Assembly: GCA_017625035.1 (NCBI GenBank)
Contig: JAGALX010000041.1
Location: 1 to 64,000 of the forward strand
From: Clostridia bacterium
Lineage (GTDB): Bacteria; Bacillota; Clostridia; TANB77; CAG-508
Direction: 5' to 3'
Length of the DNA: 64,000 bases
Of this stretch, positions 39,787 to 45,391 are shown piece by piece. Every line of letters starts with the position of its first letter. The stretch's first letter is position 1. The position numbers and the translations under genes are program-made. Below the pieces are notes generated by a model. The model had not been told where the DNA came from. It made no database searches and saw only the letters and a list, made by a program, of their open reading frames with translations.

Positions 39787-41493
39787 TTACATTTTTTCTG
39801 GAACTTCAATTCCTAATAAGTTTAAACCTTGTTTTAAAACTGAACCTACCATATTGCTTAAATATAAACGAGCATCTTGAATTTCTTTTTCTTCTCCTAC
39901 TATGTGATTTTCAGCATAAAAACTACTAAATGCTTGTGCTAAATCTATTAAGTATCTTGAAATTATTGATGGTTCGTTTTTGTCAGCTGCCATTTTTATA
40001 GTATCACCAAATGAATATAGCAATTTGATTATATTCATTGAAGCATTATCTATTATTTTTTCTACATTTACTTCTTCTAATTTTGGAACATATCCAGCTT
40101 TTTCTATTATACTTTTTGTACGTACATAAATATATTGAACATATGGTCCTGTTTCTCCTGCAAAGTTTAGCATTATATCCCAATCAAATACTTCATCTTT
40201 AATTCTATTATTATATAAATCATTAAATATAACTGCACCAATACCTACTTTTTTAGCAACTTCTTCTTTATTTTCTAAGTTAGGATTTTTTTCTTCTATT
40301 ACTTTGCTTGCTCTTGAAACTGCTTCTGATAAGATTTCGTCTAATTTAATAGCATTTCCTTCCCTTGTTGACATTTTCCCAGTTTTTAGTCTTACCATAC
40401 CAAATGGTATATGGTATAATCCTTTTTTGTATTTTTCATCCATATCTAATAATTGTGCAACTTCAAAAACTTGGTTAAAGTGTAAGTTTTGTTCATATGC
40501 TACAACATATAATATTTTTTCATAATCATAATTTCTTGCTCTGTATAATATTGCTGCTAAATCACGTGTATCATATGTTGTTGTACCATCTGATTTTATA
40601 ATCATACAAGGAGCCATTCCTTTATGTTCTAAATCTATGATTTTAGCACCTTGAGATTTAACTAACTTCCCTGATTTTTCTAACATTTCAACTATTTCTG
40701 GCATTTTATCTGTATAGAAAGCTTCTCCATTGTTTGAATCAAATGATATGCCTAATATATCATAAACTCTTTGAAATTCTTGCAAACTTAAATCTCTAAA
40801 TTTTTGCCAAAGTTCTTTGCAATATGGATCCCCATCTTCAAGCTTTTTGAAATTATTTCTACACTCTTCTAATATAGATTCATCTTCTTTACAAGCTTTT
40901 GATATTCTTACGTAAATTTTAGTAAGCTCTTCTATAGGATTTGAATCAATATCATATTCGTCTCCCCATCTTTTATAACCTTCTATAAGTTTACCAAATT
41001 GAGTTCCCCAGTCACCTAAATGGTTTACACTTATTGAATTATATCCTAAAAATTTATATATTTTATATAAAGATGCTCCAATAACAGTTGAACGTAAATG
41101 CCCTATATGAAATGGTTTTGCAATATTTGGTGCTGAATAATCTATAACTATATTTTTACCTTTTCCCTCTTCTGATGAACCAAATTTTTCTTGTTTTTTA
41201 TTAAATTCTTCTATAACTTCTTGTACTATCATTTTTTTACTAATATAGAAATTTAAATATCCACCTACAACTTCTACCTTCTCTATATTTTCATCTAATG
41301 TGATTTTTTCTTTTAATTCTGCTGCTATCATTTGAGGTGCTTTGCGCATTTGTTTTGCTAGTTTAAAGCATGGGAATGCATAATCTCCCATTGTAGAATC
41401 TTTTGGTATTTCTATAAAAGATTCTAACTCTTCAATTGATAATTGTACTTCTTTTGAAATTATTTTTGCAATTTCATTTTTTAAATTTTTCAT
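39787..41493 (-). CDS. argS: Arginyl-tRNA synthetase
   Basis: 568 residues. The N-terminal tRNA-recognition domain is followed by the class I HIGH region AKPFHIGHLRSTVIG, then GKMSTREGNAI (KMSKS equivalent) and the C-terminal anticodon-binding helical domain ending in the typical LGIEVPEKM. It charges tRNA-Arg. A T-box leader and a near-consensus promoter lie upstream, so expression should rise when tRNA-Arg is uncharged. A repeat element lies between the T-box terminator and the start codon. Confidence 0.96.
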   Translation of the reverse strand: MKNLKNEIAKIISKEVQLSIEELESFIEIPKDSTMGDYAFPCFKLAKQMRKAPQMIAAELKEKITLDENIEKVEVVGGYLNFYISKKMIVQEVIEEFNKKQEKFGSSEEGKGKNIVIDYSAPNIAKPFHIGHLRSTVIGASLYKIYKFLGYNSISVNHLGDWGTQFGKLIEGYKRWGDEYDIDSNPIEELTKIYVRISKACKEDESILEECRNNFKKLEDGDPYCKELWQKFRDLSLQEFQRVYDILGISFDSNNGEAFYTDKMPEIVEMLEKSGKLVKSQGAKIIDLEHKGMAPCMIIKSDGTTTYDTRDLAAILYRARNYDYEKILYVVAYEQNLHFNQVFEVAQLLDMDEKYKKGLYHIPFGMVRLKTGKMSTREGNAIKLDEILSEAVSRASKVIEEKNPNLENKEEVAKKVGIGAVIFNDLYNNRIKDEVFDWDIMLNFAGETGPYVQYIYVRTKSIIEKAGYVPKLEEVNVEKIIDNASMNIIKLLYSFGDTIKMAADKNEPSIISRYLIDLAQAFSSFYAENHIVGEEKEIQDARLYLSNMVGSVLKQGLNLLGIEVPEKM

Positions 41494-41657: not shown

Positions 41658-41892
41658 AAAAAACGCACTTACTAGATTGCTCTAGAGGTGCGCTTTGCAT
41701 GGTACCACTCTAATTGACTATAAAAAATATATAGCCCACTCAAAATCTGTAACGTAGATGTACGAATTGCAATACTGTTATTTCCTGCAATTACTCTCAA
41801 GCTCTAATAATTACTAAATTTCTGCTGGACTTCCACTCTGTTCCAGCTCGCTAGAGAAATTTTGGGTTAGTGATTATTTTCTTGATCAACGA
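41658..41892 (-). promoter_or_regulatory. T-box riboswitch, tRNA-Arg, upstream of argS
   Basis: On the minus strand a stem I begins near 41890. Its lower helices pair TCAAG with CTTGA and AATAATCACTAA with TTAGTAATTATT, leaving AGAG as the internal loop, so the specifier codon is probably AGA (Arg). The apical part AGCTGG..AGTGG..CCAGCA is present. The antiterminator T-box core GAGTGGTACCATGC is at 41697-41710. It is followed by a terminator, CGCAC..CTAGA..TCTAG..GTGCG plus seven T, at 41658-41692. Uncharged tRNA-Arg should favour read-through into argS. Confidence 0.88.
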
Positions 41893-41915
41893 TTTTTTAT
41901 TTATTAATATTTAGT

Positions 41916-42000: not shown

Positions 42001-42170
42001 TCTAAATATCGTTATTCTTATAAAGATGCTTTAAAACAACTTGGATTGGAGGATGATATCATATGAACTATTCTATATCATTCAAATCAGAGGCTTTGAA
42101 ATTTATACAAAAGCAATACAAAGATCAACAAATGAGATTAGTTGGATTAAAATCATTATTTATTTTATGA
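42001..42170 (+). pseudogene. Relic toxin-antitoxin module (RelB/RelE-like)
   Basis: The frame 42001-42066 encodes only an antitoxin-like tail, KYRYSYKDALKQLGLEDDII, with a stop codon just before it. The next frame starts by ATATGA overlap at 42063 behind a GGAGG site. It encodes 35 residues, MNYSISFKSEALKFIQKQY..., matching the first strand and helix of RelE/ParE toxins before it breaks off near the end of the opposite-strand NUDIX gene. Overlap and order are those of a type II module. Both genes are truncated, so it cannot be active as it stands. Confidence 0.6.
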
Positions 42171-42625
42171 ACTGGAAAAATATTATCTTTTAATACTTGT
42201 TTTATTACCTGTGGCATTATAATTTTATCATCTAAATCCTCTAAACTTATCCATTCATATTGTATTTGTTTTTCTTTATTTCCTTCTATATTTTTTAGGG
42301 TTGTTTCTATTTTTTTATCGTCATCGTTTATAAACTCAGCTTTATGAATAAACATTATTTCATGATATTTTTTATTTTTTAACTCAAAAAAGTTTTCAAT
42401 TGTTGAAATATATCCTGTTATTTCAATATCTTTTCCTAGCTCTTCTTTAATTTCTCTTTTAACTGCATCAGCTGAATTTTCACCAAATTTTACTCTTCCG
42501 CCAAGTAGGGCATAATATGTATCTTTAGTATTACGGTGCAATAATACTTTATTGTTATGTATAATAATTGCTGCTGCTCTACAATTTAATCTCCAATCTT
42601 TTACATCTACTGTTATATCTTCCAT
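42125..42625 (-). CDS. NUDIX hydrolase
   Basis: 166 residues. The NUDIX box is GGRVKFGENSADAVKREIKEELGKD (about residues 42-66), with the Glu residues that bind Mg2+ all present. It hydrolyses nucleoside diphosphates linked to some moiety. The substrate is not predictable. It ends against the relic toxin gene on the other strand. Confidence 0.88.
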   Translation of the reverse strand: MEDITVDVKDWRLNCRAAAIIIHNNKVLLHRNTKDTYYALLGGRVKFGENSADAVKREIKEELGKDIEITGYISTIENFFELKNKKYHEIMFIHKAEFINDDDKKIETTLKNIEGNKEKQIQYEWISLEDLDDKIIMPQVIKQVLKDNIFPVHKINNDFNPTNLIC

Positions 42626-42852: not shown

Positions 42853-45039
42853 TTATTTTAATAATCTGGTTAGTTCCCCTGTATAAAAAATATCTAATTT
42901 ACTCATTGCTCTTGTTATAGTTACATATAATAATTTTATGTCTAAACTACTATCTGTATATTTGCTATTACTTGCATCTGAAATAATAACACAGTCGAAT
43001 TCTAATCCTTTTGCTAAATATGATGGTACTATTGAAATACCAGAATTATATTCAGAATCTTTTCCTTTTATTAATTTTACATCTTTTCTAATTTTAGAAA
43101 ATTTCTTTTCTATTGTTTCACATTCATTCATGTCTTTTCCAATTATTGCAATTGATTTATATCCTTTTTCTAAATAATGTTCTATTCTACTATTAATATT
43201 ATTTAAAAGATTTTCTATATTCTCGCATTTTTGCATATTGATTGAATTTTTTCTATCAATTACTGGCTCTCCTAAAACTATATATTCCTTTTCATAATCT
43301 GGTAATTTATTTATTACAGAATTTGCAACATCCATTATTTCTTTTGTTGTTCTGTAAGTTTTTTGCAAAGTAGTATATGTTGTTTTTACATCTTTAAATT
43401 CTACATCTATAAATCGTTTCCAGTTTTCTATTCCTCTATAATAGTGAACTCCTTGTGCTATATCTCCTAGTATTGTCATTGAATTACTATTTAATATGGT
43501 TTTTAGTACATCAAATTGAAATTCTCCATAATCTTGAGCTTCATCTATTACAACATGTTTTATTCTACATTTTTCTTTTATTCCAAATATTTTTATTTGG
43601 ATATACATAAGTGGTGCTAAATCTTCAAATGAAATTTCGTTTTTACTTAAATTATTTAAGGTGTTTTGTTTTAAATATGTAAGTACTTCATTTGAATTTG
43701 TTAAGTAGTTATCTATAAAATCTTTATAATATTTTACTGGGTCCATTTTCGGAATTTGTCCTAAATATGTCGCTACAATTTTTTTGCTACCTTTTTCTAA
43801 TAGCTTAATTGTTTTATCATATTCATCATATACTTTAACTCTCTCTTCTCCGACTAGGTCTGCTATTTTCGCGCTTCTCTCGGCTTTTATTTTTTCTATT
43901 ATTTGTGGAGCTTTCTTTTTTAATGCTGAAACTAAATTCTTTTCAATTTCATTAATTCTTGTTGTATAATTGTACATTTTATAAGTGTTTTTAAACAAAT
44001 AATCTATGTCATTATATTTCATTATTGTATAATCCATAAAACAAAAATCATTTTTTGGTATGTAATTATTTTCTACTACACTTAAATATTCATCTAATAT
44101 TTTTTTAAAGGTTATTGATGATTTGAATTTTGCTTCTTTTATCATTACATCAACTTTACCTTTATTTATTTGATCAAACTCTTTATTGACTATAATAACT
44201 AATTTTTCGTTATTATCTGATATTTTTAATTTTTTACCTATAATATCATAAGCAAAATCTTCGAATGTGTATTGTTTTACATCATTTACACCTAAATCTG
44301 GAAGAATGTTTGATATATAATTTAAAAAGAATCTTGTTGGTGCTATTATCATAAATTCTTCTGGTTTAAATTCTTTTTCGTAGTTGTAAATTAAATATGC
44401 TATTCTATGAAGAGCTATTGTTGTTTTTCCACTTCCTGCAACTCCTTGCACAATTAGTGGAGAATTTATATCTGCTCTTATAATTTTATTTTGCTCATCT
44501 TGAATTGTAGCAACAATATTTTTTAATCTATCATCTGCCTTTTCTTCTAAAGCACTTTGTAATAATTCGTCATTACCTGTAACATTTATATCTACATATT
44601 TTAGTAGTTCTTGATTTTCTATAATATATTGCCTTTTTAGAATAATTTCTCCTTCAATTTGCTCTCCTAAACATTCATATGATGCTTTTCCAATTTTACC
44701 TTCATAATACAAATTTGATATTGGAGCCCTCCAATCTACTATTATTGGATATGCGGTTTTGTTATCTAATAAAGAAATTTTTCCTATGTACAGTTTTTCT
44801 AGATCTTTAGAATTTTCTTTAAAATCCATTCTTGCAAAATAAGGTTTATCTTTTATCTTTTTTATATCATCTAATTTTTTTATTTGAGATTGTAAGATAT
44901 TTGCTTTTGCAATGTTTTCTAAATCATAATTCATATCACTACTACTTAGTGAATTTTCAAGTTCGTTTTCTTCTTCGTTTATCTTTTTAACTATTTCTTT
45001 AAGTTTTTGTTTTTCTTGTGAAAAAACTTCCTCTTCCAT
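42853..45039 (-). CDS. helD: HelD-type UvrD-family helicase, RNA polymerase recycling factor
   Basis: 728 residues from the ATG with GGGAGG 9 nt upstream (a TTG six codons earlier is within the ribosome binding site). An N-terminal coiled coil (about 1-60) is followed by the HelD signature YIGKISLLDNKTAYPIIVDWRAPISNLYYEG. Walker A is VVQGVAGSGKTTIALHR, motif II HVVIDEAQDYGEFQ, and motif VI near the end is LLYVTITRAM. HelD clears stalled RNA polymerase. An orphan 5S-like RNA gene lies immediately upstream. Confidence 0.9.
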   Translation of the reverse strand: MEEEVFSQEKQKLKEIVKKINEEENELENSLSSSDMNYDLENIAKANILQSQIKKLDDIKKIKDKPYFARMDFKENSKDLEKLYIGKISLLDNKTAYPIIVDWRAPISNLYYEGKIGKASYECLGEQIEGEIILKRQYIIENQELLKYVDINVTGNDELLQSALEEKADDRLKNIVATIQDEQNKIIRADINSPLIVQGVAGSGKTTIALHRIAYLIYNYEKEFKPEEFMIIAPTRFFLNYISNILPDLGVNDVKQYTFEDFAYDIIGKKLKISDNNEKLVIIVNKEFDQINKGKVDVMIKEAKFKSSITFKKILDEYLSVVENNYIPKNDFCFMDYTIMKYNDIDYLFKNTYKMYNYTTRINEIEKNLVSALKKKAPQIIEKIKAERSAKIADLVGEERVKVYDEYDKTIKLLEKGSKKIVATYLGQIPKMDPVKYYKDFIDNYLTNSNEVLTYLKQNTLNNLSKNEISFEDLAPLMYIQIKIFGIKEKCRIKHVVIDEAQDYGEFQFDVLKTILNSNSMTILGDIAQGVHYYRGIENWKRFIDVEFKDVKTTYTTLQKTYRTTKEIMDVANSVINKLPDYEKEYIVLGEPVIDRKNSINMQKCENIENLLNNINSRIEHYLEKGYKSIAIIGKDMNECETIEKKFSKIRKDVKLIKGKDSEYNSGISIVPSYLAKGLEFDCVIISDASNSKYTDSSLDIKLLYVTITRAMSKLDIFYTGELTRLLK

Positions 45040-45170
45040 TATTAATTTACCTCCCAATATTTACTTTTAAATTTTTTTCTTTAATTCCTCCTTTACTAAT
45101 AAATTGACCAATCTCCATTAGTCTTATTGCAATAAATTTTCCTTCTTAAATATTTATTATATTTTGAGAC

Positions 45171-45206
45171 GCAAAAATACCAAGTATTTTATTTAATACT
45201 TGGTAT
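45171..45206 (-). terminator. Terminator of the 5S-like RNA
   Basis: ATACCAAGTATT and AATACTTGGTAT are perfect inverse copies with a 6-nt loop, followed by TTTTTGC on the minus strand. Confidence 0.75.
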
Positions 45207-45222
45207 CTATATGATTTTGTTT

Positions 45223-45360
45223 GTTTCGTAATATTTAATATAGACCAATCTAATTTTGCAATACTTAAAAATGATACATAAAATCATATAAATACTGAAA
45301 AAGTAGAGTTTGACTACTGTGTTCGGAATGGTTACAGGTATCCCTCTAAATTCACGACAC
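45223..45360 (-). rRNA. Orphan, divergent 5S rRNA-like RNA
   Basis: On the minus strand TTAGAGGGATACCTGTAACC and CCATTCCGAACACAGTAGTC closely match the conserved helix II/loop B/helix III/loop C part of bacterial 5S rRNA, followed by CTCTA to close helix II. The 3' half has lost the sequence but keeps a fold: CAGTATT pairs with AGTATTG (helix V position) around a hairpin ATGAT..ATCAT. Ends GTGTCGTGA and TTACGAAAC can pair as helix I. No 16S, 23S or tRNA is near. It has its own promoter and terminator. If the promoter is used, transcription starts a few nt inside helix I. A pseudogene or a 5S-derived regulatory RNA are both possible. Confidence 0.6.
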
Positions 45361-45362
45361 TT

Positions 45363-45391
45363 ATCTTAACATTGTAAAAGTCGTTTGTCAA
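45363..45391 (-). promoter_or_regulatory. Promoter of the 5S-like RNA
   Basis: TTGACA and TAAGAT are separated by 17 nt directly before the 5S-like sequence. Confidence 0.65.

Follow-up and report, generated by a model that had tools for sequence, protein, structure and literature searches.

Does a stretch of 5S-rRNA-like sequence that carries its own promoter and terminator, upstream of helD in a Clostridia bacterium, represent an orphan RNA gene or a part of the helD message? Here, we analysed this locus within a window of 64,000 nucleotides (contig JAGALX010000041.1, positions 1 to 64,000), together with its counterparts in other genomes. The element, which we refer to as a 5S head mimic, is best read as belonging to the cis-acting 5' leader of the helD mRNA and not as the orphan 5S-like gene of the first-pass annotation, because it lies on the same strand as helD and is directed into it, and because at four loci in relatives (L013, L014, L038 and L039) the mimic leads directly into the helD ribosome-binding site, without an intervening terminator. 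Judging from sequence comparison and fold prediction, we consider it likely that this leader belongs to a previously undescribed family of rRNA-mimicry switches, in which the folded, protein-bound mimic would be the ON state and the unfolded mimic the OFF state.

The helD leader of the window and its 5S-like core

The promoter and the terminator that had been described on either side of the element were both recovered (Table 1), and the mimic starts 14 nt past the -10 box. As had also been stated, no 16S or 23S rRNA lies nearby, none being among the Rfam matches of the window. The 195-nt RNA of the window folds 5.2 SD better than its shuffles. The helD product matches NCBIfam NF041464 (HelD_BACSU) with 488.2 bits, above the cut-off of 419, and the NUDIX hydrolase that follows helD is related to mimic-led NUDIX genes of a distant lineage (36% and 31% identity). 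Between the terminator and helD, most long leaders of the genus share a stretch that reads CUAAYGGAGRUUGGU..AAGGAGG; it repeats the AGAUUGG of hairpin H2 and could pair with the 3' strand of the mimic. Elsewhere in the window, a T-box leader (RF00230, 102.6 bits; 41681-41898, minus strand) is found upstream of an arginyl-tRNA-synthetase-like ORF (39787-41493, minus strand).

Table 1. Features of the helD leader and its downstream genes, in window coordinates
Feature	Position	Strand	Remarks
Promoter, sigma-70-type, TTGACA-17-TAAGAT, extended -10 TG	45363..45391	-	TTGACA 45386-45391, 17-nt spacer, TAAGAT 45363-45368
5S rRNA head mimic, 45 nt: helix II (UAGAG/CUCUA), loop B, helix III, loop C (CAUUCCGAAC)	45304..45348	-	
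Competing hairpin H2, 64 nt	45245..45308	-	Predicted unbound fold: occupies the helix II 3' strand of the mimic, P 0.74
Antiterminator-like long-range pairing, 16 bp, 5' strand (GUAUUUAUAUGAUUUU)	45280..45295	-	
Antiterminator-like pairing, 3' strand (AAAAUCAUAUAGAUAC)	45203..45218	-	6-nt overlap with terminator 5' arm
Strong intrinsic terminator hairpin (AGAUACCAAGUAUU..AAUACUUGGUAUUUUU)	45173..45208	-	~35 nt beyond H2
Post-terminator conserved stretch CUAAUGGAGAUUGGUC...AAAGGAGG	45083..45121	-	By eye, most long leaders of the genus
helD, RNA polymerase recycling motor	42853..45039	-	ATG at 45039; mechanical ORF extends to 45057
NUDIX hydrolase	42125..42625	-	Directly 3' of helD, probably co-transcribed

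How much of 5S rRNA does the element retain? The claim that its 5' half keeps the 5S core stands for helices II and III: 26 of the 31 core positions (helix III/loop C) are identical to the true 5S of the same genome (G000:C26:48980-49096, 86.2 bits), a match for which the rough chance expectation within the window is 1e-4. The claim does not extend to membership in the 5S rRNA family, since the element scores only 18.0 bits against RF00001, the gathering score being 38, due to the absence of helices I, IV and V and of loop E. Indeed, in the cmscan alignment the window mimic consists of 5S helices II-III and loops B-C only, and by inspection the other leaders likewise contain neither helices I, IV and V nor loop E. 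An Rfam family at cut-off was found neither for the window locus nor for the 12 leaders searched. The pairing CAGTATT/AGTATTG, which had been taken for a drifted helix V, belongs to the separate leader hairpin H2 and is not a 5S helix.

Distribution, conservation and downstream genes

Is the mimic a feature of this locus alone? We found it at 49 loci in three genera of uncultured gut Clostridia, all from draft genomes and many of these MAGs. It is present in 13 of the 16 genomes of the window's genus (19 loci), in three of six genomes of a sister genus, and in a distant "Eubacterium" lineage in 23 of the 60 genomes of the genus, plus one from a family scan (27 loci used). This lineage was reached through L102 and L109, both from 'Eubacterium' MAGs, with a pattern scan of species genomes; the family scan added a single new mimic (L211), and elsewhere among the newly searched genomes the matches look like true 5S. 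Since true 5S genes match our models R1 and R2 too, a score alone was never counted as a mimic, and each locus was judged by its helix I and helix IV/V context. Across 391 genomes of the class, a first exact pattern gave matches that read as true 5S and missed the window's own imperfect -10 box, and a second gave the window's own mimic as its only match, which would make the family patchy or more divergent elsewhere in the class. The known spread is a lower bound, because the search tools were either exact patterns or models derived from the first genus. No exact match to the mimic was present in viral contigs, and in plasmids the matches were partial (80-90% identity, to records such as Clostridioides) and are probably ordinary 5S.

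Absence or random decay of the element in close relatives, which had been named as the condition that would refute the earlier proposal, was looked for and did not apply, as 13 of the 16 genus genomes retain it. When 11 genomes of the window's genus were searched for helD, eight contained it, and all of these except G009 carry a mimic leader on the gene; in the three genomes that lack helD, no mimic linked to helD is present either. The helD leader of G009 (L250) contains a degraded mimic behind a promoter of the same kind, the one decayed copy and the sole mimic-less helD leader among the genus genomes checked.

Within the three groups, the mean pairwise identity of the mimic is 0.92, 0.82 and 0.88, compared to 0.27-0.40 for flanking stretches of similar length. 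Covariation in relatives, an earlier proposal for checking the fold, is found in helix II, where four of the five pairs show two-sided changes (27 sequences, 22 distinct); in type B leaders, for instance, UCAAG/CUUGA is replaced by UCGGG/CCCGA. Helix III is 100% paired and has one two-sided change. Over the whole structure, 26 cells carry two-sided changes and 88.4% of cells are paired, a value that none of 500 shuffles reached (79.8% in shuffles); kinship alone can exceed shuffles without any structure, and weight was put on the two-sided changes and on slid controls. By these comparisons, the mimic is under selection as an RNA fold. The earlier proposal of a 5S-derived RNA under selection is thus upheld as to conservation and covariation, with the correction that the RNA is best read as a cis-acting leader rather than a free RNA gene.

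In the distant "Eubacterium" genus, the resident 5S reads ACCCGUUCCCAUCCCGAACACGGUAG, while the type A mimics found there mostly read ACCUGUUCCCAUUCCGAACACAGAAG. The type A mimics have a mean identity of 0.90 to the 5S of the first genus versus 0.83 to their own, and this greater nearness to a foreign 5S makes it less likely that they were copied recently from the resident 5S gene. Distant-lineage type A leaders (e.g. L163, L167, L170 and L171) also have a conserved small hairpin (~AUCAG-loop-CUGAU) ahead of the mimic.

Promoters across the 49 loci score 10.7 out of 12, compared to 8.25 in shuffles, with the predicted transcript start close to the mimic, and the distance from promoter to mimic is near-fixed inside each leader design.

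Wherever the downstream gene is readable, the mimic heads a gene on the same strand. In the window's genus (19 loci) these are helD (10), an HD-domain hydrolase followed by helD (3), a DHH phosphoesterase (3) and an MsbA-like ABC exporter (3). In the sister genus, the mimic precedes an ABC-2-type ATPase. The 27 loci of the distant lineage comprise NUDIX hydrolases (10), a P-loop kinase of the 'DNA topology modulation' type (7; NUDIX-fused in the one tested), metallophosphoesterases (5), nucleotidyltransferases (3), one methyltransferase and one ambiguous gene; most of these calls are readings of the translation, with HMM tests on one example per kind. At L109 and L211, the metallophosphoesterase is followed by an ABC exporter. 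No ribosomal-protein gene was found downstream of a mimic, and the leaders do not head the gene or operon of a protein whose site they would copy. The suspected links, one to helD and one to transcription or ribosome status, are worth testing, but the element is not specific to helD, given the same mimic before many genes in three genera. In the sister genus, we also observed that each of the three ABC ATPase genes (L058, L153 and L081) appears frameshifted at Walker A (e.g. GGTGCACGGAAAATC in L058), for which a shared insertion, a programmed frameshift or an assembly artefact are options.

Leader designs and predicted switch folds

Type A leaders (18 loci) are short and include their own terminator in a length of about 100 nt. 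In all 18, the entire 5-nt 3' strand of helix II falls within the 5' arm of the terminator, and the ensemble predicted for the unbound state pairs it with downstream sequence (P 0.98-1.00). In the short helD leaders (five loci), the same CUCUA strand is predicted to pair with UAGAG of the Shine-Dalgarno region UAGAGGAGG, with P 0.97-0.99 in four of the five; in the fifth, L042, helix II is retained in the predicted unbound fold. As the helix II 3' strand is common to the mimic and to its terminator or Shine-Dalgarno partner, the folded mimic and the OFF structure would exclude each other in both designs, according to fold prediction. In type B leaders the competing fold differs and is less clear than in type A. 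Between mimic and terminator, type B leaders L198 and L200-L207 contain a conserved GAUGCUGUUACAUC, which can pair with the helix III 3' strand (ACAGC) and also looks like the beginning of a short ORF (MLLHRPV).

The long leaders, that of the window included, are predicted to place the helix II 3' strand in H2 when unbound. In 12 of the 15 long leaders, H2 can form an antiterminator-like pairing of 12-16 bp with the sequence that precedes the terminator; in L010-L012 no significant pairing is seen. The nucleotides that this pairing shares with the terminator arm number 6 in the window and in four relatives, and 0-3 in several long leaders. With the mimic forced in the window leader, the terminator stays in the best fold (-39.3 kcal/mol), and the addition of the antiterminator gives -36.0 kcal/mol, i.e. 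about 3 kcal/mol dearer. Because the forced mimic leaves the terminator standing, a mutually exclusive switch in the window's long leader is only a hypothesis carried over from its relatives, although a plausible one by analogy. Its ON state might combine the mimic with the antiterminator-like pairing of Table 1.

Candidate ligand, competing readings and known systems

What could hold the mimic in its fold? We propose that the OFF structure would prevail while the ligand is absent, and that a 5S-binding ribosomal protein in excess over 5S rRNA, most likely uL18 and perhaps together with uL5, would hold the mimic in the 5S fold, so that the terminator or the hairpin blocking the Shine-Dalgarno sequence could not form and the gene would be expressed. 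Since the bound state is the mimic and excludes the OFF structure, the sign of control would be activation. The bL25 site, which we take to be 5S loop E/helix IV, is missing from the mimic. The 5S-binding proteins of bacteria are uL5, uL18 and bL25 (PMC10931766), and within the ribosome the 5S head is flanked by uL18 and uL5 (PMC3614586); with helices II/III and loops B/C kept, the leaders would, going by this literature, copy the site at which a ribosomal protein binds rRNA. If the switch model is right, uL18 and/or uL5 are in our view slightly more likely than not to be the ligand, on the basis of which part of 5S is kept. Free uL18/uL5 could in turn report an rRNA supply that lags behind that of ribosomal proteins, e.g. 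when RNA polymerase is inhibited, a signal that would suit HelD as well as the exporter, hydrolase and transferase genes.

Alternatively, the mimic could be a ligand-binding leader whose ligand is a dedicated RNA-binding protein, a small molecule or a 50S precursor lacking 5S, which we regard as the less probable case but one to be taken seriously. Exporters, NUDIX hydrolases and transferases are kinds of genes often found behind small-molecule-responsive leaders, and in type B mimics helix III has no AA bulge, which means that some 5S features can be dispensed with. However, the universally conserved loop C/helix III and a covarying helix II are kept, as would be expected from mimicry of the site of a 5S-binding protein, and we know of no small molecule that binds 5S loop C/helix III.

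The arrangement of promoter, mimic and strong terminator within about 220 nt in the window would also fit a stable, trans-acting RNA of about 185 nt, ending at the terminator, which would titrate uL18/uL5 or enter ribosome assembly. We find this improbable: the short helD leaders are terminator-free and continue straight into the gene, a same-strand gene follows at every readable locus, and in type A a strand of the mimic is part of the terminator, so that the 5S fold would be lost from an RNA that ends there. Slightly more improbable still is control at the level of DNA, by an operator at +1 or by convergent promoters like those that govern helD in B. subtilis (PMC12802891), instead of by an RNA fold. 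The compensating helix II changes of type B argue against it, as do terminator arms that follow the helix II strand. Convergent promoters of the B. subtilis type were rejected, as antisense promoters scored 8.27 against a shuffled null of 8.33 in a simple consensus scan. A stray 5S pseudogene that happens to lie near helD, a reading to which the low Rfam score and the 5S remnants of other Clostridia (PMC7812874) might lend themselves, is negligible in view of a mimic that is near-invariant at 49 loci beside unrelated flanks, covaries and keeps a near-fixed promoter spacing.

A leader that senses a 5S-binding protein thus remains our preferred reading. Tentatively, and with a good deal less assurance than for the switch itself, we propose that a 5S mimic heading a whole defence-like regulon would let bacteria sense the balance of 5S-binding protein and 5S rRNA, so that an imbalance in ribosome assembly would alert the cell to inhibitors of RNA polymerase or of ribosome production. 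If true, this would tie the status of ribosome assembly to antibiotic defence, the genes being helD, drug-exporter-like and drug-modifying-like genes.

How do these leaders compare with known systems? We found no earlier report of a 5S-mimic leader family in the open-access literature. The 5S pseudogenes and remnants of Clostridia are also 5S-like with terminal parts missing (PMC7812874), but they usually lie downstream of a normal 5S at the ends of rRNA operons, whereas the element described here is conserved and precedes protein genes. In B. subtilis, HelD protects RNA polymerase from rifampicin, and rifampicin induces helD via a promoter-based alarm, whose promoters also precede hydrolases, transferases and ABC transporters (PMC12802891). 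The B. subtilis helD/pps alarm and the actinobacterial rifampicin-associated element thus control helD and similar gene classes, and this likeness suggests that the 5S-mimic family may answer a similar stress. Both are based on promoters or DNA, unlike the present leaders, which have no antisense promoter signal above the null.

Known rRNA-mimicking leaders serve the self-control of ribosomal-protein genes. The leader of rplY (bL25) in relatives of E. coli differs from ours in that it mediates autogenous repression and in that loop E/helix IV, presumably the bL25 site, is absent from the present mimic. It is alike in being a case of mRNA control by a 5S-binding protein (PMC10931766), which would also apply here. 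Bacterial r-leaders (L20, S15, S4 and others) mimic rRNA and overlap the expression platform (PMC7247131). Likewise, the present leaders appear to copy the rRNA site of a protein, and an overlap with the platform is predicted in relatives (all of the type A and four of the five short helD leaders) and hypothetical in the window's long leader; the r-leaders govern ribosomal-protein operons, whereas here other genes follow, control would be activating and the mimicked rRNA is the 5S head.

The closest parallel in terms of the mimicked RNA comes from plants, where the P5SM element in the TFIIIA pre-mRNA is a 5S mimic that is bound by L5 (= uL18) to set expression (PMC5972288). In both cases a 5S-mimic fold lies inside a message, as indicated here by sequence and covariation. 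P5SM is eukaryotic and acts on the splicing of the gene of a 5S transcription factor, whereas the present elements are bacterial leaders of defence-like genes with putative protein binding. If our reading is correct, the 5S-head leader family would be the bacterial counterpart of the plant 5S mimic.
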